Assembly (NCBI RefSeq): GCF_002831585.1 | Contig: NZ_CP025113.1 | Coordinates: 7,939,091-8,003,090 of the forward strand | Length of the DNA: 64,000 bases | Reading direction: 5' to 3' | Source: Bradyrhizobium sp. SK17 | Lineage (GTDB): Bacteria > Pseudomonadota > Alphaproteobacteria > Rhizobiales > Xanthobacteraceae | In this document: positions 11,445 to 62,244 of the stretch, piece after piece | Layout: each line of letters opens with the position of its first letter | Position numbering within the stretch: the first letter of the stretch is position 1 | The notes under the pieces: generated by a model | Told to the model about the DNA's origin: nothing | What the model saw: only the letters and a program-made list of their open reading frames with translations | Databases searched by the model: none | Position numbers and translations under genes: made by a program

Positions 11445-11540
11445 AGCGTTTTCGAGCGAATTGGATACCGGTTCGCGTGAGGAAAACGCGTCACGACAAG
11501 AACCTGGGGCCCCGATCCGTTTCCACCGGAACGGGGCTCT
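11445..11540. repeat. Intergenic repeat, family B (copy 1)
   Basis: A 96-base unit containing GCGTTTTCGAGCGAATTGG, ATACCGGTTCGCGTGA, AAAACGCGTCA, AAGAACCT and an end pairing CCGATCCGTTTCCACCGGAACGGGGCTCT. It begins directly after the lipoprotein stop codon. A second copy, in reverse orientation, begins at the stop codon of the GMC gene (52056). The remaining bases to prs hold nothing else I recognise. Confidence 0.8.
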
Positions 11541-48907: not shown

Positions 48908-49056
48908 GGAACGCCGGATACGGCGCGTAGACCGCCGGGCGGCCATGTCCACCGTACCGGTTCCGCTGGCCGGTTTTGTTCTGCGGTGAAACAGCCCGCT
49001 ACTACCACCGGCAGTTTTCGGCCTCCTACAGTCACTGCAAACAAGCGGTGGTGTGG

Positions 49057-49910: not shown

Positions 49911-50459
49911 ATGAGAGAAATCGATCGACGCAGCAGATATGACCGGCGCGTGTTTCTCAAAGGCGCGGCGGCCACCGCACCGGCGGTCGCGATCGCGACA
50001 TCGACCGGGCTCGGCATCACCGATGCGTGGGCCGACGAAGCCGGCACGCTGACGCCGGCGACCATGAAGACGCTGTTGAAGATGGCGCGCGACATCTATC
50101 CGCACGATTTCCTCGGCGACAGTTACTACATCACGGCGGTCAAGCCGTGGGACGACAAGGCCGCCAAGGACCCGGCGGTCAAGTCGCTGATCAATGACGG
50201 CGTCGCGCGGCTCGATCAGGAGGCCAACGACCGCCACAAGATGCCCTACGCGCAGGTCGCCTGGGAGAACGATCGCGTCGCGCTGCTGCAACGGATCGAG
50301 GAGAGCGCGTTCTTCCAGAAGATCCGCGGCGACCTCGTCGTCTCGCTCTACAATAACAAGGAGGTATGGCCGCGGTTCGGCTACGAGGGCTCCTCCGCCG
50401 AGCATGGCGGCTACATCAAGCGCGGCTTCGCCGATATCGACTGGCTGCCCAAGGCCTGA
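49911..50459 (+). CDS. Tat-exported small subunit, gluconate 2-dehydrogenase subunit 3-like
   Basis: 182 residues. A twin-arginine signal (YDRRVFLKGAAA, hydrophobic stretch, ADE cleavage region) is followed by a helical domain: TMKTLLKMARDIYPHDFLGD, AQVAWENDRVALLQRIEES, FFQKIRGDLVVSLYNN and EVWPRFGYEGSSAEHGGYI. This is the pattern of the gamma subunit that carries a partner FAD enzyme through the Tat system. The GMC oxidoreductase 29 bases downstream has no signal of its own, which fits such hitch-hiker export. Substrate unknown. Confidence 0.85.
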   Translation: MREIDRRSRYDRRVFLKGAAATAPAVAIATSTGLGITDAWADEAGTLTPATMKTLLKMARDIYPHDFLGDSYYITAVKPWDDKAAKDPAVKSLINDGVARLDQEANDRHKMPYAQVAWENDRVALLQRIEESAFFQKIRGDLVVSLYNNKEVWPRFGYEGSSAEHGGYIKRGFADIDWLPKA

Positions 50460-50488
50460 ATCGGACAACGAACGCTCGGGAGGACACA

Positions 50489-52057
50489 ATGGCAAAATTC
50501 GATCTGAATGACAGCGGCGTTGTCGTGATCGTCGGCTCCGGTGCCGGCGGCGGAACGCTCGGCAATGAACTGGCGCAGAAGGGCATCAAGGTGGTGATCC
50601 TGGAGGCCGGCCCGCGCATCGAGAACCAGGACTTCATCAACGATGAATGGGACAGTTTTTCCCAGCTCGCCTGGTCGGATGCGCGCACCACGTCGGGGAC
50701 CTGGCGCGTCCACAAGGACTTCCCCAATCTGCCGGCCTGGATCGTCAAGGCGGTCGGCGGCTCGACCACGCATTGGGCCGGCGCGTCGCTGCGCTTCGAC
50801 GAGCACGAGTTCAAGATCAAGTCGGCCTATGGCGGCATCCCCGGCGCCAATCTCTTGGACTGGCCGATCACGCTCGCCGAGATGGAGCCGTGGTACGCCA
50901 AGGCCGAGGACAAGATGGGCGTCACCCGCACCAACGGCATCCCCGGGCTGCCCGGCAACAATAACTTCAAGGTGCTTGAGGCCGGCGCCAAGAAGCTCGG
51001 CTACAAGGAGGTGCACACCGGGCGGATGGCGATCAACAGCGAGCCGCGCGACGGCCGCGGCTCCTGCCAGCAGATCGGCTTCTGCTTCCAGGGCTGCAAG
51101 TCGGGCGCCAAATGGTCGACGCTCTACACCGAGATCCCGAAGGGCGAAGCCACCGGCAATCTCGAGGTGCGCCCAAGCAGCATGGTGATCAAGATCGAGC
51201 ATGACCAGTCCGGCAAGGTCACCGGCGTGGTCTATGCCGATGCGAGCGGCGCGATGCAGCGCCAGAAGGCGCGCGTGGTCGCGGTCGCCGGCAATTCGAT
51301 CGAGAGCCCGCGGCTGTTGCTCAACAGCGCCTCCAGCATGTTCCCGGACGGGCTCGCCAATTCATCGGGCCAGGTCGGCCGCAACTACATGCGGCACATG
51401 ACCGGCAGCGTGTATGCGAGCTTCGAGAAGTCGGTGCACATGTATCGCGGCACCACGATGGCCGGCATCATCCGCGACGAGGCTGCGAACAACCCGAAGC
51501 GCGGCTTCGTCGGCGGCTACGAGATGGAGACGCTGTCGCTCGGCCTGCCCTTCATGGCCGCGTTCCTCAACCCCGGCGCCTGGGGCCGCAGCTTCACCGG
51601 CGCGATGGAGGGCTATCCGCGGATGGCCGGGATGTGGCTGGTCGGCGAGGACATGCCGCAGGAGACCAACCGCATCACGCTCGATCCGAAGGTCAAGGAC
51701 AAGTTCGGCATGCCGGTCGCCAGCGTGCATTTCGACGATCACCCCAACGATCTCGCGATGCGCGATCACGCCTACAAGCAGGGCTCCGCGGTGTACGAGG
51801 CGGTCGGCGCCACCGTGACCTATCCGACGCCGCCCTATCCCTCGACCCACAACATGGGCACCAACCGGATGAGCGAGAAGCCGCGCGACGGCGTGGTCAA
51901 CAAGTTCGGCCAAACCCACGACGTCAAGAACCTGTTCGTGTCCGACGGCAGCCAGTTCACATCAGGCGCGGCGTGCAATCCGACGCTGACGATCGTGTCG
52001 CTGGCGATCCGCCAGGCCGATCACATCGCCGGCGCGATGCAGCGCAAGGAGATCTAG
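50489..52057 (+). CDS. GMC family FAD-dependent dehydrogenase
   Basis: 522 residues from ATG 50489 with GGGAGG upstream. FAD loop VVIVGSGAGGGTLGNELAQ with ILEAGPR; KAVGGSTTHWAG is the second GMC signature; the active-site His is in STHNMGTNRMS and the Asn in FTSGAACNPTLTIVSLAIRQ. It belongs to the choline/gluconate-dehydrogenase side of GMC. No signal peptide, so it is probably exported with the Tat-tagged subunit upstream and oxidises a sugar or alcohol in the periplasm. Electron acceptor probably a c-type cytochrome. Confidence 0.93.
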   Translation: MAKFDLNDSGVVVIVGSGAGGGTLGNELAQKGIKVVILEAGPRIENQDFINDEWDSFSQLAWSDARTTSGTWRVHKDFPNLPAWIVKAVGGSTTHWAGASLRFDEHEFKIKSAYGGIPGANLLDWPITLAEMEPWYAKAEDKMGVTRTNGIPGLPGNNNFKVLEAGAKKLGYKEVHTGRMAINSEPRDGRGSCQQIGFCFQGCKSGAKWSTLYTEIPKGEATGNLEVRPSSMVIKIEHDQSGKVTGVVYADASGAMQRQKARVVAVAGNSIESPRLLLNSASSMFPDGLANSSGQVGRNYMRHMTGSVYASFEKSVHMYRGTTMAGIIRDEAANNPKRGFVGGYEMETLSLGLPFMAAFLNPGAWGRSFTGAMEGYPRMAGMWLVGEDMPQETNRITLDPKVKDKFGMPVASVHFDDHPNDLAMRDHAYKQGSAVYEAVGATVTYPTPPYPSTHNMGTNRMSEKPRDGVVNKFGQTHDVKNLFVSDGSQFTSGAACNPTLTIVSLAIRQADHIAGAMQRKEI

Positions 52058-52157
52058 AGCCTTTCCCGTTCCTATGGAATCGGAACGGGGCTCTAGGTTC
52101 TTGTCTTGACGCGTTTTCTTCACGCGAACCGGTATCCACTTCGCTCGAAAACGCTCT
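52056..52157. repeat. Intergenic repeat, family B (copy 2, reversed)
   Basis: Reverse complement of the unit at 11445: starts AGAGCCTTTCCCGTTCC, contains GGAATCGGAACGGGGCTCT, AGGTTCTTGTCTTGACGCG, TTTTCTTCACGCGAACCGG and ends CGCTCGAAAACGCTCT. It begins at the stop codon of the GMC gene and precedes that gene's terminator. Confidence 0.8.
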
Positions 52158-52175
52158 AAGATCCCTCGAACTGAA

Positions 52176-52211
52176 GCGGCCTTGTCCTGCACGGGACAAG
52201 GCCGCTTTTTT
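52176..52211 (+). terminator. Intrinsic terminator after the GMC gene
   Basis: Stem GCGGCCTTGTCC / GGGACAAGGCCGC with a 5-base loop, followed by TTTTTT (52206-52211). It lies about 120 bases after the stop codon, beyond the family B repeat, and closes the cytochrome-to-GMC unit. Confidence 0.9.
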
Positions 52212-52236: not shown

Positions 52237-52461
52237 CTATTCCGCGGCATCCATGCAGCCGGGCGAAAGGGTGGCGAGGAATTTGGCCAAGGTCATACCT
52301 TCCTTGGCCGCGATCTCCTCGAGCGTATCCCAGAACGACATTTCCAGCCGGATCAAGGTGCAATGGTCGTCGATCCGCAACGATCGGGTCTGCGATCCAT
52401 CGTCGCGTTGCGCGCCGTCGCGCTCGCGATGGCTAACGCATCGGATTCCCGGCAACGACAT
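52237..52461 (-). pseudogene. Shortened copy of a ribbon-helix-helix gene
   Basis: By eye, bases 52270-52396 match 59924-60050 with about 8 mismatches in 127. The encoded SQTRSLRIDDHC, LIRLEMSFWDTLEEIAAKEG and MTLAKFLATL repeat the intact protein at 59768. The next 41 codons are missing in frame, and both copies end MDAAE. The upstream part has lost the intact copy's ATG and its GGAGGAA ribosome site; the only in-frame ATG is at 52461 without one. Probably a decaying duplicate, though a 74-residue protein is not excluded. Confidence 0.75.
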
Positions 52462-52838
52462 CGATAGCGGAATGGAAACGTAGATAGCGACATGACGGCG
52501 GCAAATGGCCGCATCGAACAGATTTAGGAAATAGGTATGGTCCCAAGGAACGATGAGAAAGCCAAGCTTGGTCTCGCATTGCACAAAATGTGTGTAATTT
52601 TTGGGAGATCTGGGAGCTTGTATACTGGTCAACCCGCCAGTAGGCTTCACTATCGAAAATTGAGTATGGAAAAATACGGCACCAAGCCGCCAGCTCATCC
52701 AAGGAGAGGACGCGCATGATGCCCGGGATTGTTCATTCCGCACACGGTCTTCGGTCGCGCCTTCGCCTCGCCGTGCGTCTGTCCGATGTCAAGCATAGTC
52801 TCCGCTGCCATTCGCGCCGTGACGTCTGGCGCTAGCCG
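52462..52838. other. AT-richer leader of the ABC operon
   Basis: This gap is visibly lower in GC than the rest of the window (for example around 52560-52680). It should carry the promoter of the transporter operon that starts at 52839. No open frame here looks like a real gene. A perfect palindrome within it is listed separately. Confidence 0.55.
52623..52642. promoter_or_regulatory. Palindrome TACTGG-N8-CCAGTA ahead of the ABC operon
   Basis: Perfect 6-base arms with an 8-base spacer, 197 bases upstream of the first permease gene. Twenty bases is a usual size for a TetR-type operator, and a double-TetR regulator ends this cluster, so it is a reasonable candidate for its binding site. This is inference from symmetry and position only. 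Confidence 0.45.
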
Positions 52839-53792
52839 ATGCGTGCCTACATCGTCCGGAGGCTGCTGGCCCTGATCCCGACCCTGATCTTCGCCAGCAT
52901 GATCGTGTTCATCACGGTCAGGCTGATCCCGGGTGACGTGATCGACATGATGCTGAGCCAGAACGACATCGGCGCAGATAAACTGAGCCGTGAGCAGCTC
53001 GAGCACGTGCTCGGCTTCGACCGACCGATGGCGCAACAATACGTGGTGTGGATCTTCGGCATCTTGCGCGGCGATCTCGGCAACTCGTTATGGCGTTCGA
53101 CACCGGTGCTCGACGACATGCTGCAGCGTTTGCCGGTTACTTTCGAACTCGGCCTCCTGGCGCTCATCGTCGCGCTGTCGATCGCGTTGCCGATCGGCGT
53201 TTATTCCGCGATACGGCAGGATACGGCGGGCGACATCATCGCGCGCTCGTTCTCAATCTTGCTGCTGGCGGTACCGAGCTTCTGGCTGGGCACCATGGTG
53301 GTGGTGTTTCCCTCGATCTGGTGGGGTTGGTCACCGGAAGTCAATTATGTTCCCTTCAGCGCGGCCCCGCTGCAGAACCTCAAGCAGATGATCGTGCCGG
53401 CTATCGTGCTGGGCGCGGGTCTCTCCGCCGTGACCATGCGGATGACGCGAACCATGATGCTGGAGGTTCTTCGGCAGGATTACATTCGGACCGCCTGGGC
53501 GAAGGGTCTTCCGGAGCAGTTGGTGGTCATGCGGCACGCGCTGCGCAATGCCCTCATTCCGGTGATCACCCTGATCGGGCTGCAAGCCCCGCTGCTGATC
53601 GGCGGCGCCGTAATCATCGAACAGATCTTCGTCATTCCCGGCATGGGGTCGTTGCTGCTGGAGGCCGTCAACCAGCGTGACTATCCCGTCATCACCGGCG
53701 TGTTTCTGGTGGTCGGTGTTGCCGTGATGCTGATCAACCTGATCGTGGACCTGAGCTATGGCCTGCTCGATCCGCGGGTGAGGCACCGATGA
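52839..53792 (+). CDS. Peptide-type ABC transporter permease (DppB/OppB family)
   Basis: 317-residue inner-membrane permease with about six hydrophobic segments. The N-terminus MRAYIVRRLLALIPTLIFAS is the classic DppB/OppB start, and the EAA loop is in YIRTAWAKGLPEQLVVMRHALRN. It overlaps the next permease by four bases. First gene of a five-gene transporter operon (two permeases, binding protein, two ATPases). Substrate not predictable: peptides, nickel, opines or glycosides are all seen in this class. Confidence 0.95.
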   Translation: MRAYIVRRLLALIPTLIFASMIVFITVRLIPGDVIDMMLSQNDIGADKLSREQLEHVLGFDRPMAQQYVVWIFGILRGDLGNSLWRSTPVLDDMLQRLPVTFELGLLALIVALSIALPIGVYSAIRQDTAGDIIARSFSILLLAVPSFWLGTMVVVFPSIWWGWSPEVNYVPFSAAPLQNLKQMIVPAIVLGAGLSAVTMRMTRTMMLEVLRQDYIRTAWAKGLPEQLVVMRHALRNALIPVITLIGLQAPLLIGGAVIIEQIFVIPGMGSLLLEAVNQRDYPVITGVFLVVGVAVMLINLIVDLSYGLLDPRVRHR

Positions 53793-54685
53793 ATTCGCTG
53801 ACCGAAGCCAGCCCGATGAAACGGCGGGCCTCGCCAGGCGCCCTGAGGCAGTTCGTGGCGCGGCTGATCCGAGAGCAGCCGGTGGGCGCGGCGGCGGGGG
53901 TCGTGTTCGTTCTCTTCCTGTTTTGCGGTGTGTTCGCGCATCTGCTGGCGCCCTACGGCTTCAACGAGATCAGCCCGATCGAGCGGTTGAAGCCACCATC
54001 GCTGCGACATCTGTTCGGAACCGACAATCTCGGCCGCGACGTGCTGTCGCGCTGCCTTTATGGCGCCCGGCTGTCGGTGATTATCGGTCTCTCGGCAGCC
54101 GCGCTCGCTACCGTGATATCGGTGACCATCGGTACCATAACCGCCTATATCGGTGGCCGATTCGACATGATCGCGCAGCGGTTCGTCGACGCCTACATGT
54201 CGTTTCCTGAGCTGGTGATCTTGATCGCGGTGGTATCGGTGCTTGGCCCCGGCATGATCCAGATCATCGGTATCCTCAGTCTGGTGCTTGGCATTGCGGG
54301 CTCCCGCATCATCCGCAGCGCCGTGCTGTCGGCGCGGGAGAACCTGTATGTGCATGCAGCACAGTCGATCGGTGCCTCGACTGGCCGCATCCTGTGGCGG
54401 CACATCCTGCCAAACATCATGCCGCCGATCATCGTGTTGTTCACCACCCGCGTCGGCGCGGTGATCCTTGCGGAATCCGGCCTGTCGTTCCTCGGTCTCG
54501 GCGTACCGCCGCCCGCGCCCACCTGGGGCGGCATGCTTTCCGGCAGCGCCCGCACGTACATGTTCCAGGGACCATGGCTGGCGCTCGCGCCTGGGCTTTG
54601 TCTGACGGTGGTCGTTTACGCCACCAACGTATTCGGCGACGCGCTACGCGACCTGCTTGATCCGCGCATGCGCAACTCGCGCTAG
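53789..54685 (+). CDS. Peptide-type ABC transporter permease (DppC/OppC family)
   Basis: 298 residues, six hydrophobic segments, with the DppC-type periplasmic LFGTDNLGRDVLSRCLYGARLS motif (LFGTDNLGRDVLSR) and an EAA-like loop LYVHAAQSIGASTGRILWRH. The C-terminus LAPGLCLTVVVYATNVFGDALRDLLDPR is family-typical. The start overlaps the dppB-like stop, so the two are translationally coupled. Confidence 0.95.
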   Translation: MNSLTEASPMKRRASPGALRQFVARLIREQPVGAAAGVVFVLFLFCGVFAHLLAPYGFNEISPIERLKPPSLRHLFGTDNLGRDVLSRCLYGARLSVIIGLSAAALATVISVTIGTITAYIGGRFDMIAQRFVDAYMSFPELVILIAVVSVLGPGMIQIIGILSLVLGIAGSRIIRSAVLSARENLYVHAAQSIGASTGRILWRHILPNIMPPIIVLFTTRVGAVILAESGLSFLGLGVPPPAPTWGGMLSGSARTYMFQGPWLALAPGLCLTVVVYATNVFGDALRDLLDPRMRNSR

Positions 54686-54721
54686 GGACAATCAACGGAA
54701 CGAGACGGGGAGAAACACACG

Positions 54722-56443
54722 ATGCGAAAGCCAACGACCGGACTGGGATCGATTGCAAGAACGTTGCGCGCACTGTCGCTGGCTGGCGCGTTGACGCTAC
54801 CGGCTGGGTTGGCATCCGCAGGCGAAGCGGTGCCGCAACGCGGCGGGACCCTCAACATCGGCAACGTCTATGTCACGCTTTCGCCCCTCACCTGGGATCC
54901 GGCCGACTGGGCGTGGAAGTTCCAGCAGGACACCGGCCTGATGTACGAGCAATTGTTCGCCGCCGACCTCAGCAAGTCGAAGCGGCACGGCGGCCCCTAC
55001 TCGTTCGTACCGGACGCGTGGCTTCCGTCGGACGCGATTCGCGGTGAACTCGCCGAGAGTTGGCAGTGGAAGCAAGATCCGCCGCGCGTGGAGATCAAGC
55101 TCCGTCAGGGCGTGATGTTTCCGGAGAAACCCGGCGTAATGGCGGCGCGCGAACTCGTGGCCGAGGACGTGGTGCAGAGCTACGAACGGCTCAACAACAG
55201 TCCGAAGAAGATTCCGACCTATTTTGACCACATCGCAAAGGTCGAGGCGACCGACAAGCACACCGTCGTGTTTACGTTCAAGACCTATTTCTCCGAGTGG
55301 GACTATCGGTTCGGCTGGGGCTACTACTCCGGCATCGTGCCGAAGGAGGTCGCCGACGCGGGCGCGGGAAACTGGAAGAACGCCAATGGAACGGGGCCAT
55401 TCCGGCTCACGGACTACGTGCAGGGCAACGCGGCCACATTCTCCAAGAACGACAAGTACTGGGACAAGGAAGTCATCGACGGCAAGTCCTATCAGTTGCC
55501 GTTCGTGGACAAGATCGTCTATCGCACCATCAAGGACGAGGCCACGTTCCTCGCCGCGCTGCGGACCGGCAAGCTCGACCTGCTGGAATCCATCCGATGG
55601 AGCGCGGTGGAAGAGCTCAAGAAGAGCGCGCCCAAGCTGCAGTGGTCACGCTGGCTTGCCACTGGGGGCACGTTCCTCGCCATGCGCAACGACACGAAGC
55701 CGTTCGACGACGTACGGGTACGCCGCGCGCTCAACATGGCGGTGAACAAGCAGGAGATTCTGAGCTCGTTCTACAATGGCGAGGGGCAGTTGTTCGCATA
55801 CCCGCAACACCCCGACTACATCGGCTATTTCGAGCCTCTTGAGCAGATGCCGGACTCGATCAAGGAGCTCTACACCTACAATCCGAAGAAGGCGAAAGCG
55901 CTGCTCGCGGAGGCCGGCTATCCGAACGGCTTCTCCTTCAAGGTTCAGGTGTGCTCCTGCTCGCCCGACCACATGGACCTGTTGCCATTGGTGGCAGCCT
56001 ATCTGGAGCAGGTCGGCGTCAAGATCGAAATTCAGCCGATGGAATACGGCGCATTCCTGTCGGCGATGACCACCAAGACCAACGCCGCTGGCTATTTCAT
56101 GCTCAACGGCCATACCAACCCGACCACCACGCTGCGCAAGAGCTTCGTCACGAAGCAGACGTGGAATCCGTCGCAGTTCTCCGATCCCGACATCGACCGC
56201 AAGATGAACGAGGCCTATCAGGAGCAGGACGAAGGCAAGCGTCAGGCAATGCTCAAGGAGATGACGCGGTCGATCATCGACAAGGCGCCCTACATCTTCC
56301 TGCCCGTCCCCTATGTCTATACGGCCTGGTGGCCGTGGGTGAAGAACTATGGTGGCGAGTTGCGCGCTGGCGCAGAGCGTCCGGGCCCGATCCACGCGCG
56401 GATATGGATCGACCAGGAAATGAAGAAGGGGATGGGCTATTGA
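54722..56443 (+). CDS. Periplasmic substrate-binding protein, SBP_bac_5 family
   Basis: 573 residues with a signal peptide (about 1-33, ending ASA). The cluster C binding protein pattern is present: GGTLNIGNVYV, LYEQLF-like MYEQLFAADL, LAESWQWKQDPPRVEIKLRQ, NGTGPFRLTDYVQGN, RRALNMAVNKQEIL, and KAKALLAEAGYPNGFSF. It captures the ligand for the two permeases just upstream. Peptide-binding specificity cannot be read from sequence. A TTG start for the next ATPase overlaps its stop. Confidence 0.95.
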   Translation: MRKPTTGLGSIARTLRALSLAGALTLPAGLASAGEAVPQRGGTLNIGNVYVTLSPLTWDPADWAWKFQQDTGLMYEQLFAADLSKSKRHGGPYSFVPDAWLPSDAIRGELAESWQWKQDPPRVEIKLRQGVMFPEKPGVMAARELVAEDVVQSYERLNNSPKKIPTYFDHIAKVEATDKHTVVFTFKTYFSEWDYRFGWGYYSGIVPKEVADAGAGNWKNANGTGPFRLTDYVQGNAATFSKNDKYWDKEVIDGKSYQLPFVDKIVYRTIKDEATFLAALRTGKLDLLESIRWSAVEELKKSAPKLQWSRWLATGGTFLAMRNDTKPFDDVRVRRALNMAVNKQEILSSFYNGEGQLFAYPQHPDYIGYFEPLEQMPDSIKELYTYNPKKAKALLAEAGYPNGFSFKVQVCSCSPDHMDLLPLVAAYLEQVGVKIEIQPMEYGAFLSAMTTKTNAAGYFMLNGHTNPTTTLRKSFVTKQTWNPSQFSDPDIDRKMNEAYQEQDEGKRQAMLKEMTRSIIDKAPYIFLPVPYVYTAWWPWVKNYGGELRAGAERPGPIHARIWIDQEMKKGMGY

Positions 56444-57459
56444 ACGGCCCGGCGAATCTTCCGGACGCTGTTGGGGACGGTGGCGCGCAGCCACCGCCCC
56501 TGCTGCGGGTGCGCAATCTGACGACACGCTTTCGCATCGACCGCGGCGCGATCACCGCGGTCAATCGCGTTTCCTTCGACGTGGATGCGGGCGAGACGCT
56601 GGCCATCGTCGGCGAGTCCGGTTCGGGCAAGAGCATGACGGCGCTGTCGATCCTGCGGCTGATCCCGAACCCGCCCGGCCGGATCGAGGACGGTGAAATC
56701 CTGTTCGACGGGCTGGACCTGCTGAAGCTGTCCGATGCGGAAATTCGCGACATCCGCGGCAACAAGATCGCCATGATCTTCCAGGAGCCGATGAGTTCGC
56801 TGAACCCGGCGCTGACGGTCGGCCTCCAGGTCGGCGAGCCCATCAACCGCCACGGCGGCGCGCCGTGGTCGAAAGCCTTGCTTGCTGCGCGCGACCTGCT
56901 TGGACGGGTGAGGATGTCCGACCCCGCTTCGCGCGTTAACGCCTATCCGCACCAATTCTCCGGCGGCATGCGCCAGCGCGCGATGATCGCGATGGCCATG
57001 GCCTGCCAGCCGAGGCTGATCATCGCCGATGAACCGACCACAGCACTCGATGTCACGGTGCAGGCGCAAATCCTGGACCTGCTCAAGGATCTGGCGCTGC
57101 GCTCGCGCTCGGCATTGATCCTGATCACGCACGACCTCGGCGTGGTCGCGCGGTACGCCGACCGCGTCGCCGTCATGTATGCCGGGCGCATCGTGGAGAC
57201 GGCCCCGGCACGGGAGTTGTATTCGCGGCCGCGGCATCCCTACACCCGCGGGCTCATGGCCTCGGTGCCCCGGCTGGACAGCGATACGCACCAACGTCTG
57301 GTTCCCATCGAGGGCCAGCCACCGAACCTCGCGGCGCTGCCACCCGGCTGCGCATTCGCGCCGCGCTGCCGCCAGGCCGTCGACGCTTGCAAGCAGGCCC
57401 CGCCCCCGCTGCGCGAAGTCGGCCCGCGTCACAGCGCGGCCTGCATCATGGAGGGCTGA
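56440..57459 (+). CDS. ABC transporter ATPase (DppD/OppD family)
   Basis: 339 residues from TTG 56440, overlapping the binding-protein stop by four bases; GAAGGGG lies eight bases upstream and no nearer start fits. Walker [14 protein letters not shown], signature [16 protein letters not shown], Walker [13 protein letters not shown], switch His in [10 protein letters not shown]. The C-terminal Cys-rich oligopeptide domain ([17 protein letters not shown]) is present, as in DppD/OppD, where these Cys can bind an iron-sulfur cluster. Confidence 0.94.
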
Positions 57460-57462
57460 CCG

Positions 57463-58449
57463 ATGTCGCAACAGCTGCTGCAAGTCCGCGATCTGAAGGT
57501 CCATTTTCCGATCAGTGCTGGCACCCTGTTGCGAAAGCAGGTCGGAGCGGTGCGTGCGGTCGATGGCGTATCGTTCTCGCTGGCGCGCGGCGAGACGCTT
57601 GGTCTCGTCGGGGAAAGTGGCTGCGGCAAGTCGACCACGGGCCTGGCGATCCTGAAGATGCAGGCGCTGACCTCCGGCCGCATCGAGTTCGAGGGCCAGG
57701 ACATCACGTCCTACGACCGCAAGCAGATGCAGCCGCTGCGGCGGCGGATTCAGATGGTCTATCAGGATCCCTACGGCTCGCTCAATCCGCGCATGACAGT
57801 GCGTGATATTATCGGCGAGCCCCTGGTGGTGCATGGGCTTGCAGGAGATCGCGAGGCCTATGAGGAGCGAATTGCCACATTGATGCGCACGGTCGGCTTG
57901 TTGCCGGACATGGCGGGCCGCTATCCACATCAATTCTCGGGCGGCCAGCGCCAGCGCATTGGCATCGCAAGGGCTCTGGCGCTCGAGCCTAGCCTTATCA
58001 TCTGCGACGAGCCGGTATCGGCGCTCGACGTCTCGATCCAGGCCCAAGTGGTGAACGTGTTTGTCGAACTGCAGGAGCGGCTCGGCCTTGCCTACTTGTT
58101 CATTGCCCACGACCTGGCCGTTGTCCGCCATGTCAGCCATCGCATAGCGGTGATGTATCTGGGACGGATCGTGGAAATCGCCCCACGCGACGCCCTCTAC
58201 ACGTCGCCGCTACATCCCTACACGCAGGCCCTCCTCGCGGCCGTGCCGGTGGCGGACCCCGAGGTCGAGGCGGCACGACCGCGGGCGATCATCAGCGGCG
58301 AAGTGCCGAGCGCAACCAATCCGCCACCGGGCTGTCGCTTCCACACCCGCTGCCCGCAGGCGTTTGCGCGCTGCCGAACCCAAAGTCCGGAGTTGCGCGA
58401 CCTCGGCAGCGGTCAGGCCGTCGCCTGCCATTTGCACGACACTCTCTGA
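57463..58449 (+). CDS. ABC transporter ATPase (DppF/OppF family)
   Basis: 328 residues. Walker [16 protein letters not shown], the Q-loop in [16 protein letters not shown], signature [17 protein letters not shown], Walker [19 protein letters not shown], switch His in [11 protein letters not shown]. The C-terminus has [18 protein letters not shown], the second Cys-rich domain. It starts three bases after the DppD-like stop. The asymmetric ATPase pair is typical of peptide and nickel importers. Confidence 0.95.
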
Positions 58450-58468
58450 TCGTCCTAACGTGGACGCC

Positions 58469-59701
58469 ATGAAGCTCAAGCCGAACACCAAGGGCGACGT
58501 CACCCGAACCCGGAAGTTCGTCGCCAAACAAGATGCCATTCTTGATGCCGCCGCCCGCCAGTTCAATCGGCTTGGTCTCAAGGGAGCGACCTTCACCGAC
58601 ATCGCTGGCAGCGTCGGCCTGCTCACCAACAGCGTCACCTATTACTATCACCGCAAGGATGACCTGGCGGCGGCCTGCCTGATCAAGGCGATCGGCTCGG
58701 GGCATGCGTTGGCCGACGCGGCGCTCGGCGCCGGCGATCCAGAGGCCAGGATCCGCCATCTGATCCATGGACACGCCGATGTACTCGCCGGAATCGCCCG
58801 CGGTCAACGCGACGCGTTGGTCAACTTCAACGATATCCGGGCACTGAAGGCCCCCGAGGCCGATCGCGTATTTGCCGCCTATACCGAGATGTTTCGCAGC
58901 GTTCGGAAGCTGCTACCGAAGGACATCCTGGGACCGCAGGAGCGGAACGCGCGGGCGCATCTGCTGGTGTCGCTGACCAACTGGATGCGCCGCTGGATCT
59001 CCCGCTACGAGCCCGACGACTACGCATACGCCGCGGCGCGCATGAGCGACATCGTGATCAACGGGCTCGCTCGCCGGCGCGGTCAATGGAAGGAGTTGGC
59101 CGGGCTGGAGATCGACTGGTCACAATCCGACTCAGCCGATACCCCCACTCCCGACGCCTTCCTGCGCGCGGCAACCGTGCTGGCCAACGACGAGGGCTAT
59201 CGCGGCGCCTCCGTCGATCGCATCGCAAGACGCCTGAACCTCACCAAAGGGTCCTTCTATCACCACTATGATAGCAAGGAGGAGCTGGTTGCGTCATGTT
59301 TCGAACGGACCTTCGACATCATTCGCCGCACCCAGACACTGGCGCGTCAGCGCCATGACTCAGGCTGGGCGCGGCTGATGGCGGCTGCGCAGGCGCAGGT
59401 TCGAATTCAGCTATCGGATCATGGGCCCTTGATCCGAACCTCGGCATGGAATGCCTTGCCTGAGCCAATCCGCGAGAATTGCAGGCAAGCGCTCGACCGC
59501 CTGACCGAGCAACTGGGCGTGTTCGTGGTAGAAGCCATGCTCAACGGAGACGTTCGCCTGCTTGATACATCGATTGCCGCCGAACAGGTTACGGGGATGA
59601 TCAATGCTGCCTCCGAGCTCGACCGCTGGGTACCTGCGCTGGCCAGGGACCGCGCCGTCGACTTGTTCGCGCGACCACTCTTTGAAGGCATCCTGTCGTA
59701 G
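58469..59701 (+). CDS. Double-TetR transcriptional regulator
   Basis: 410 residues from ATG 58469, about twice the length of a normal TetR protein, because two complete TetR units are fused. Unit 1 (about 1-215): KQDAILDAAARQFNRLGLKG, FTDIAGSVGLLTNSVTYYYH. Unit 2 (about 225-410): FLRAATVLANDEGYRGASVD, IARRLNLTKGSFYHHYDSKE. Each helix-turn-helix is followed by its own helical domain. A single chain could thus supply both DNA-binding heads of a dimer. It starts 19 bases after the ATPase gene and probably controls the transporter. Confidence 0.92.
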   Translation: MKLKPNTKGDVTRTRKFVAKQDAILDAAARQFNRLGLKGATFTDIAGSVGLLTNSVTYYYHRKDDLAAACLIKAIGSGHALADAALGAGDPEARIRHLIHGHADVLAGIARGQRDALVNFNDIRALKAPEADRVFAAYTEMFRSVRKLLPKDILGPQERNARAHLLVSLTNWMRRWISRYEPDDYAYAAARMSDIVINGLARRRGQWKELAGLEIDWSQSDSADTPTPDAFLRAATVLANDEGYRGASVDRIARRLNLTKGSFYHHYDSKEELVASCFERTFDIIRRTQTLARQRHDSGWARLMAAAQAQVRIQLSDHGPLIRTSAWNALPEPIRENCRQALDRLTEQLGVFVVEAMLNGDVRLLDTSIAAEQVTGMINAASELDRWVPALARDRAVDLFARPLFEGILS

Positions 59702-59767
59702 CTACCACAATCCCGATCCGATGTGCCTGCTCGGGAATACGCATCGGTCCTTTCAGATACGGCGTGC

Positions 59768-60091
59768 CTATTCCGCCGCGTCCATGATCGGCGCCGTCGT
59801 CCCGCGATAGTCCGGAACCACGGCCGGCGCATTCGCCTTGGCGCGATAGATCAGGCAGGAGCAGCGCAGCAGCGAGGCGAAATTGTTCACCTCGCCGTGA
59901 TGGTCGAGCACCTCGTTGTGCAGGGTGGTGAGGAACTTGGCCAGCGTCATGCCTTCCTTGGCCGCGATCTCCTCGAGCGTGTCCCAGAACGACATTTCCA
60001 GCCGGATCGAGGTGCAATGGCCGTCGATCCGCAACGATCGGGTCTGCGATTCATAGTCACGCTGCGGCTGGTGCGCGAAAAGATGGCACAT
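59768..60091 (-). CDS. Ribbon-helix-helix domain protein
   Basis: 107 residues. The RHH_4-type domain (about 15-85) has QTRSLRIDGHCTSIRLEMSF (the strand is RSLRIDGHCTSIRL), FWDTLEEIAAKEGMTLAKFL and HNEVLDHHGEVNNFASLLRC. A tail of about 20 residues ends MDAAE. RHH_4 proteins are small DNA-binding proteins widespread in alphaproteobacteria, with little known of their targets. A strong GGAGGAA ribosome site precedes ATG 60091. A shortened second copy lies at 52237 in the same orientation, so the ABC/TetR block is bracketed by direct repeats. Confidence 0.9.
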   Translation of the reverse strand: MCHLFAHQPQRDYESQTRSLRIDGHCTSIRLEMSFWDTLEEIAAKEGMTLAKFLTTLHNEVLDHHGEVNNFASLLRCSCLIYRAKANAPAVVPDYRGTTAPIMDAAE

Positions 60092-60324: not shown

Positions 60325-62145
60325 ATGCCCGTCCGCCAACTTCCCGAACAGCTCGTCAACCGCATCGCCGCCGGCGAGGTGGTCGAACGTCCTGCGAGCG
60401 TGGTCAAGGAACTGGTCGAGAACGCGATCGACGCCGGCGCCAGCCGGATCGACGTCTTCACCGATGGCGGCGGACGGCGCCGGATCGGCATCACCGATGA
60501 CGGCGGCGGCATGACGCGGTCAGACCTTGCGCTTGCGGTCGACCGCCACGCCACCTCCAAGCTCGATGACGAAGACCTCCTGCGCATCCGCACCCTCGGG
60601 TTCCGCGGCGAGGCGCTGCCGTCGATCGGCGCGGTGGCCAAACTCGGCATCACCACGCGCCACGCCAGCGAGCCGCATGCGTGGTCGCTGGCGGTCGAAG
60701 GCGGCGAGAAATCGGAGATCATGCCTGCCGCGCTCGGCCAGGGCACCCGCGTCGAGGTCAATGAACTGTTCTACGCCACGCCGGCGCGGCTGAAATTCCT
60801 CAAGACCGACCGTACCGAGGCAGAGGCGATCCGCGAAGTGGTACGGCGCCTCGGCATGGCGCGGCCCGACATCGCCTTCACGCTGGCCGGCGAGGAGCGT
60901 GCGCCGGTGACCTGGGCCGCCGCGCTGCCCGGCGCGGCCGGCCGGCTGACCCGGCTCGGCGATATCCTCGGCGCGGATTTTCGCGCCAGTGCGATCGAAG
61001 TGCGATCCGAACGCGAAGGCGTCGTGGTCGAGGGCTTTGCCGCCGCGCCGTCGCTGACCCGCGCCAATGCGCTCGGGCAATATCTGTTCGTCAATGGCCG
61101 CCCGGTGCGCGACAAGCTGATCCTCGGTGCGGTGCGTGCGGCCTATTCCGACTATCTTCCGCGCGACCGCCATCCCGTGGTGGCACTGTTCGTGACCTGC
61201 GACCCGCAAGAGGTCGACGCCAATGTGCATCCGGCCAAGACCGAGGTGCGCTTCCGCAACGCCGGCCTGGTGCGCGCGCTGATCGTGCACGCGCTGAAGG
61301 ACGGCCTGGCGCGCGAGGGAAGGCGCACCGCGGCCAACACCGCCGACGGCGCGACCTTGCAGGCGTTCCGCCCCGCTTTCACGCCGCCGCCGCGGCCGGG
61401 CAATTGGGACTGGCGCTCTTCGCCGTCCTATCCGGCTGGTCCGATGCGCGGCTTCGAAGCCGCGGCGGCGACCGCCTTTGCCGAGCCGGGACAGGCCGCC
61501 TTCGATGTCGGCACCCCGACCGCCGATGTGCGCTTCGAAGCGGCACCCGCGCCCGACATGCTGGACCGTCCGCTCGGCGCCGCACGCACCCAGATCCACG
61601 AGACCTACATCGTCTCGCAGACCCGCGATGGCCTCATCGTGGTCGACCAGCACGCGGCCCATGAGCGCATCGTCTATGAGCGGCTGAAGGCCTCGCTGGC
61701 GAAGAACGGCGTGCAGCGCCAGATCCTCTTGATCCCCGAGATCGTCGAACTCGACGAGGCGACCGTCGAGAAGCTGCTCGATCGCGCCGAAGAGCTGTGC
61801 TCGTTCGGACTTGCGATCGAATCCTTCGGCCCCGGCGCCGTTGCCGTGCGCGAGACGCCCTCGCTGCTCGGCAAGGCCAACGCGGCCGGCCTGTTGCGCG
61901 ATCTCGCCGAACACATGGCGGAATGGGACGAGGCGCTGCCGCTGGAGCGCCGGCTGATGCATGTCGCCGCCACCATGGCCTGCCACGGCTCGGTCCGCGC
62001 CGGCCGCCGCCTCAAGCCGGAAGAGATGAACGCGCTGCTGCGCGAAATGGAAGACACCCCGAATTCCGGCCAGTGCAACCACGGCCGCCCGACCTATGTC
62101 GAGCTGAAGCTCAGTGATATCGAGAAGCTGTTCGGGCGTAGATAG
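60325..62145 (+). CDS. mutL: DNA mismatch repair protein MutL
   Basis: 606 residues. The GHKL ATPase has IAAGEVVERPASVVKELVEN, ITDDGGGM, RHATSKL and GFRGEALPSIGAVAKL. After a Pro-rich linker (about 340-415) the C-terminal domain has the endonuclease motif DQHAAHERIVYE (DQHAX2EX4E), ACHGSVRAGRRL and QCNHGRP. MutL is therefore a nicking enzyme itself, as in bacteria without MutH. The 60092-60324 gap upstream holds divergent promoters but no clear motif. Confidence 0.97.
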   Translation: MPVRQLPEQLVNRIAAGEVVERPASVVKELVENAIDAGASRIDVFTDGGGRRRIGITDDGGGMTRSDLALAVDRHATSKLDDEDLLRIRTLGFRGEALPSIGAVAKLGITTRHASEPHAWSLAVEGGEKSEIMPAALGQGTRVEVNELFYATPARLKFLKTDRTEAEAIREVVRRLGMARPDIAFTLAGEERAPVTWAAALPGAAGRLTRLGDILGADFRASAIEVRSEREGVVVEGFAAAPSLTRANALGQYLFVNGRPVRDKLILGAVRAAYSDYLPRDRHPVVALFVTCDPQEVDANVHPAKTEVRFRNAGLVRALIVHALKDGLAREGRRTAANTADGATLQAFRPAFTPPPRPGNWDWRSSPSYPAGPMRGFEAAAATAFAEPGQAAFDVGTPTADVRFEAAPAPDMLDRPLGAARTQIHETYIVSQTRDGLIVVDQHAAHERIVYERLKASLAKNGVQRQILLIPEIVELDEATVEKLLDRAEELCSFGLAIESFGPGAVAVRETPSLLGKANAAGLLRDLAEHMAEWDEALPLERRLMHVAATMACHGSVRAGRRLKPEEMNALLREMEDTPNSGQCNHGRPTYVELKLSDIEKLFGRR

Positions 62146-62160
62146 ATCTTGCACGATTCC

Positions 62161-62244
62161 GTAGGATGGGTGGAGCGCAGCGATACCCATCAACTTTCGT
62201 TCCGCGGCACCATGATGGGTTTCGCTGCGCTCTACCCATCCTAC
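62161..62244. repeat. Intergenic inverted repeat, family E
   Basis: GTAGGATGGGTGGAGCGCAGCGATACCCATC on the left and GATGGGTTTCGCTGCGCTCTACCCATCCTAC on the right are nearly perfect inverted arms around a 22-base centre. It lies between the convergent mutL and the hypothetical gene and could act as a bidirectional terminator. I recall closely similar elements in many Rhizobiales genomes. Confidence 0.85.

Follow-up and report, generated by a model that had tools for sequence, protein, structure and literature searches.

Organization of the importer locus

The window, a 64,000-nucleotide stretch of the Bradyrhizobium sp. SK17 genome, contains a peptide-class importer operon and a double-TetR regulator gene lying between two direct copies of a ribbon-helix-helix (RHH) gene. 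The features of the locus are as follows (positions in the window).

50489..52057, plus strand: GMC oxidoreductase, left flank; GMC_oxred_N/C (scanned on 50366-52057)
52055..52160, no strand: dispersed repeat of ~105 nt in the GMC-RHH spacer, from a search of the own genome
52173..52208, plus strand: terminator-like hairpin between GMC and the left RHH copy, common to the spacers of close relatives
52237..52412, minus strand: left RHH copy, with a probably resident 3' end and an internal deletion; first ~8 codons and promoter missing
52413..52650, no strand: junction filler, 52% GC (52.1%)
52651..52838, plus strand: 5' region of the operon, conserved with genome G356
52839..53792, plus strand: DppB/OppB-type permease (PF00528, PF19300)
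53789..54685, plus strand: DppC/OppC-type permease (PF00528)
54722..56443, plus strand: substrate-binding protein, SBP_bac_5 (PF00496)
56443..57459, plus strand: DppD/OppD-type ATPase (PF00005, PF08352 (oligo_HPY))
57463..58449, plus strand: DppF/OppF-type ATPase (PF00005, PF08352; NF008453 barely over the cut-off)
58469..59701, plus strand: double-TetR regulator, 410 aa (PF00440 (TetR_N) in two stretches of one chain, PF17932)
59768..60091, minus strand: right, intact RHH_4 gene (Pfam), collinear with close relatives from 59760-59768 into mutL
60325..62145, plus strand: mutL, right flank (Pfam)

The Pfam scan showed all the parts of a PepT-class importer operon (DppBCDF/OppBCDF type, Pfam SBP_bac_5). 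As in such operons, two BPD_transp_1 permeases, one SBP_bac_5 binding protein and two ABC ATPases with oligo_HPY are encoded in one operon. The locus differs from them in its linked double-TetR regulator and in that the second ATPase is the sole importer protein to pass an NCBIfam cut-off among the matches listed (for the ATPases, the best 25 of 185). The dN/dS values of the operon genes relative to those of G356, a genome of another genus in the same family, range from 0.06 to 0.17, indicating that the genes are under purifying selection. A small peptide-like or similar solute is the most likely substrate of the importer, and the double-TetR protein is most likely the local repressor of the operon. 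The initial annotation had read a five-gene peptide-type importer and its likely regulator between the repeats and had taken them for one functional unit. The domain assignments confirm the DppBC/OppDF-type genes and the double TetR, and the unity of the block is borne out by the same six genes occurring elsewhere in the same order.

The window spans C1:7939091-8003090 of genome G000. Its end is the end of the contig, and the head of the contig (C1:1-23681) corresponds to window positions 40300-64000 at 99.85% identity, with one substitution and 34 gap positions. A second locus at the contig head was therefore ruled out in favor of an untrimmed circular overlap of 23.7 kb. Since the contig head repeats the last 23.7 kb, the two contig-end matches were counted as one place. 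In the contig-head version of the overlap, the match to the substrate-binding protein is broken into two frames.

The two RHH copies

A mechanical repeat search found a 145-nt direct repeat at 52268-52412 and 59922-60066, with a spacing of 7654. The two arms are 92% identical, differing by 12 mismatches across 145 nt and sharing three exact runs of 27-29 nt. An earlier count by eye, of about 8 mismatches in 127 bases, agrees with this alignment, in which exactly 8 of the 12 mismatches fall inside that 127-base interval. Recombination across the repeat could in principle excise 7.65 kb. Both copies match RHH_4 (PF13467) on the minus strand, the right copy covering profile positions 2-66 of 67 and the left copy positions 2-43. 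Elsewhere in the same genome, the RHH search returned a distant match at 36% identity (E 3.1e-7) and another at 30% (E 0.26).

The right copy is arranged as in close relatives from its stop codon through the promoter and on into mutL. The left copy, described in the initial annotation as shortened, does cover less of the profile, but it is not simply shortened: the native 3' end of the gene is kept, with the MDAAE stop at 52237-52255, and an internal stretch is missing. Homology resumes at 52268 and is lost at 52412, 25 nt short of the start-codon position. In 8 of 15 close relatives, the spacer and the final codons of the left copy can be aligned at 79-83%; more distant relatives gave no alignment of this part (20 loci compared). 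Extension of the left copy into the promoter was considered and rejected. Past 52412, local alignments to 16 targets were mostly no better than those of letter shuffles, and for the best targets 24 and 27 of 300 shuffles reached the score, none clearly standing out.

The insertion site in related genomes

The site was compared with the loci of 35 relatives, taken by RHH similarity, for spread, or for carrying the operon elsewhere. All 35 have a GMC oxidoreductase gene followed by one RHH gene, with no importer or TetR gene in the stretch; mutL adjoins RHH in 34 of them and was not found in the stretch of the remaining genome (G017). The reading of the block as an insertion, put forward in the initial annotation, is upheld by these loci, and none of the relatives examined shows the order in which two RHH copies surround the operon. 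At E<=1e-12, RHH matches occur in 167 of 265 genus genomes (own included), and five genomes have more than one. In four of the five (G138, G149, G159 and G249), the second RHH lies megabases off or on another contig and has 48-70% identity. A linked second RHH was found in the present genome (G000) only, at a threshold that weaker remnants would escape.

In 31 of the 35 relatives, GMC and RHH are separated by 68-421 bp; in the remaining four, the gap is 2.9-3.8 kb long and contains other genes. In G024, G001 and G114 the gap is 3.6-3.8 kb; that of G024 holds a Beta-lactamase-family (PF00144) and a flavin-monooxygenase-like frame, and near-identical frames were seen by eye in G001 and G114. The 2.9-kb gap of G031 holds a transposase (PF05598). 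Since four relatives (L025, L028, L031 and L036) carry inserts here besides the window, the GMC-RHH spacer is a recurrent insertion point. Comparison of the loci gives good support to the view that the importer block was inserted at the GMC-RHH-mutL site and was, presumably, acquired horizontally.

The operon at other places

The operon is absent from the site in the relatives examined, and the operon, its 5' region and the double-TetR gene form a unit that is found elsewhere. In G356, at a different place, the block is collinear over 52651-59702, from the 5' region to the TetR stop, with 82.8% identity at the DNA level. The operon and the double TetR occur at 56-57% in five other genus genomes (G081, G037, G129, G213 and G073); G085 and G012 have the transporter genes and no TetR match within the stretch. 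A scan of named genomes confirmed 235 relatives of the binding protein, and 78 loci were kept, from Reyranella, Cupriavidus, Chelatococcus and others. A TetR relative is present in 25 of these 78 loci, several of the stretches being cut by contig ends, and the GMC, RHH or mutL genes of the window were found in none of the 78 within the stretch examined per locus. Several operon relatives (L038, L043, L049, L056, L066 and others) have two to four substrate-binding protein genes close together. In G356, a tandem RHH pair lies beside GMC with no insert (L147:7756-8617), and no mutL match was found in the 18-kb stretch.

Alleles of the left and right copies

At seven of the 12 sites that differ between the left and right copies, either state is also found in other species. 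Five left-copy base states at differing sites are absent from all 35 relatives, and codon reading by eye showed that the same five states are amino-acid changes between the two copies. None of the right-copy states at the differing sites is unique when compared with 15 close relatives. At 52321, the two copies share a state that none of the 35 relatives has, which points instead toward duplication in situ. In a tree of 37 rows built on the 145 nt, the left and the right copy belong to one moderately supported group of 16 rows (89/86, not starred) and not to separate old clades, the outcome that the initial annotation had named as contrary to its proposal. The same tree leaves the placement of left and right as sisters unsettled, a left-right clade not being rejected (AU p 0.308).

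The left allele was also met in a public protein, P0123, of 66 aa, compared with 107 aa in the intact gene, encoded on a single contig of 1121 bases. P0123 has the intact MCHLFAHQP start followed by the exact left allele, with the deletion and all five changed residues. This form, the deleted allele with a start, is not encoded in the window. To judge from P0123, the decayed left allele does exist in a form uncut by the operon. Because P0123 carries the deletion together with an intact start, decay of the resident RHH gene probably preceded the arrival of the block. That P0123 might be a chimera assembled from the left and right copies was judged unlikely, as a switch within one of the three long exact runs would leave right-type residues on the start side, and all five are left-type. 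The initial annotation had the insertion duplicate the flanking RHH gene; this step is probably wrong, since the left deletion and the five changes are already present in P0123 with its intact start. Likewise, because P0123 holds the deletion and the five changes of the left allele, it is improbable that the intact right copy was freshly made from that resident allele. From these alleles, import of the right RHH gene with the block, or its survival from an older tandem pair, appears likelier than a fresh duplicate.

The left junction is found in further public records. P0122, a leader-fused left copy, occurs on 9 contigs, the longest of 419,912 bases; some of these contigs may belong to other assemblies of the present strain. 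P0242, on a 767-base ENA contig, is a leader-fused left copy that differs slightly, with the junction as in P0122. As the junction is also present in the P0122 and P0242 contigs, an assembly error is unlikely. On the right side, P0001 (98% to the TetR protein) and P0125 (in the cluster of the right RHH) each list a longest contig of 20,640 bases, which suggests that the two are neighbors on a contig of that length. The filler at 52413-52650 has no match beyond chance elsewhere in the own genome and none in plasmids.

Order of events

On sequence grounds, we consider it somewhat probable that a complete regulated importer operon of the peptide class (~7.35 kb, 52413-59765) was acquired beside an already decayed resident RHH gene and brought an intact RHH gene along, in a joining like that of homology-facilitated illegitimate recombination (HFIR). 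The resident RHH gene would have decayed first, through the internal deletion. The DNA that entered would have carried the operon and, adjoining it, an undamaged RHH gene of close Bradyrhizobium origin. On the right, this DNA may have been joined through homologous recombination within the RHH-mutL region; on the left, the joint may have formed without homology, within the resident RHH gene, in the manner of HFIR. This would leave the truncated remnant of the resident gene at the left end and an undamaged RHH gene at the right. In a coarse table of segments, the nearest relative did not change at mutL in a way that would mark the end of donor DNA. Nor was any strain seen that has the operon next to RHH but lacks the left remnant; both observations count against this reading. 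More tentatively, and with rather less than an even chance of being right, the operon may travel with the intact RHH gene as a homology arm, so that one additive event both delivered the cargo and supplied the recipient with an intact version of its decayed gene, at a spacer holding other cargo in other lineages.

A tandem duplication of the RHH gene could instead have come first, with the left copy decaying and the operon later inserting between the copies, removing the left start and promoter. The RHH pair beside GMC without an insert in G356 is a precedent for such a state, and the private state at 52321 and the tree, which does not reject a left-right clade, are in keeping with it. However, this order requires an extra event with no insertion agent visible, and at E<=1e-12 the genus yielded no tandem pair: of the 167 of 265 genomes with a match, only the present one has a linked second copy. 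We regard it as unlikely.

In Campbell-type integration, the operon and an RHH fragment would have arrived on a circular molecule, with one crossover in the resident RHH gene producing the direct repeats and its reversal excising the 7.65 kb. A truncated left copy and a complete right copy in direct orientation fit a single crossover, and the repeat holds three exact runs of 27-29 nt. If P0123 represents the resident allele, however, all five diagnostic sites up to 52401 are of the resident type in the left copy, and the crossover would be confined to the last 11 nt of the 145-nt homology. In addition, neither a replicon gene nor an integrase gene is present in the block, plasmids gave no match to the leader, and the binding protein reaches only 68.5% in two Cupriavidus records, making this origin improbable.

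The version of the initial annotation, in which decay of the left copy followed a duplication of the resident RHH gene by operon insertion, would explain direct repeats that flank an insert not seen at the site in relatives and copies that are 92% identical and in one tree group, but it is very improbable given an uncut decayed left allele with its start in P0123 and left-right differences at seven sites where both states occur in other species.

Comparison with known systems

One report (PMC3240628) describes HFIR of linear DNA in three naturally competent species and, at low frequency, in E. coli conjugation. The joining favored here, next to a decayed resident RHH gene, would resemble the process described there in its one homologous and one non-homologous end and its additive gain of foreign DNA without a transposase. 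It differs in being read from the product alone.

The locus resembles integrative elements and genomic islands with direct-repeat ends in that the block is absent from relatives and lies between direct repeats. Unlike in those elements, there is no integrase or transposase among the scanned proteins and no tRNA at the site, and in place of a short att site, the repeat consists of the body of an RHH gene in two unequal alleles. The lack of a visible transposase or integrase, already remarked in the initial annotation, held in the Pfam scan of the six main genes and six short edge frames. Among 72,556 plasmid records, two matched the binding protein at E<=1e-60, both from Cupriavidus metallidurans at 68.5%, and the leader had no match among plasmids. 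Viral contigs gave no match to six peptide patterns of the binding protein and none to a DNA pattern of the left copy. Judged by title, none of the papers found on horizontal transfer and insertion of ABC transporter genes in Bradyrhizobium concerns this locus.

The acquisition of this accessory operon is ordinary but well resolved, and its junctions are informative. It offers a clean case in which a transport operon, its 5' region and its regulator moved as one piece, with no mobile element visible, and the related alleles at both ends allow the order of decay, import and truncation to be read. Direct gene repeats that flank a block need not imply duplication by insertion.

Flanking features and base composition

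Base composition was a check proposed in the initial annotation. The GC content is 63.2% in the operon, 65.1% in the left flank, 67.7% in the right flank and 52.1% in the filler. The block as a whole has 62.8%, below the 65.2% median of the 7,340-base stretches of the window, but this is a weak sign; the lowest stretch (62.0%) starts at 49001 and overlaps the block.

Alignments to close relatives break at the dispersed repeat at 52055-52160. With 40 of 104 candidates scored, this ~105-nt repeat has at least 40 matches at E<=1e-8 in the own genome, two of which are this place; it was also noted at window positions 11446-11492. No riboswitch or other RNA was found in the leader. Weak matches to the Brucella sRNA families BASRCI27 and BASRCI408 (E 0.0028 and 0.064), below the gathering scores, cover the dispersed repeat and its surroundings (52018-52177). 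Just after mutL, at 62161-62244, there is a 32-nt inverted repeat whose arms are 94% complementary and separated by 20 nt.
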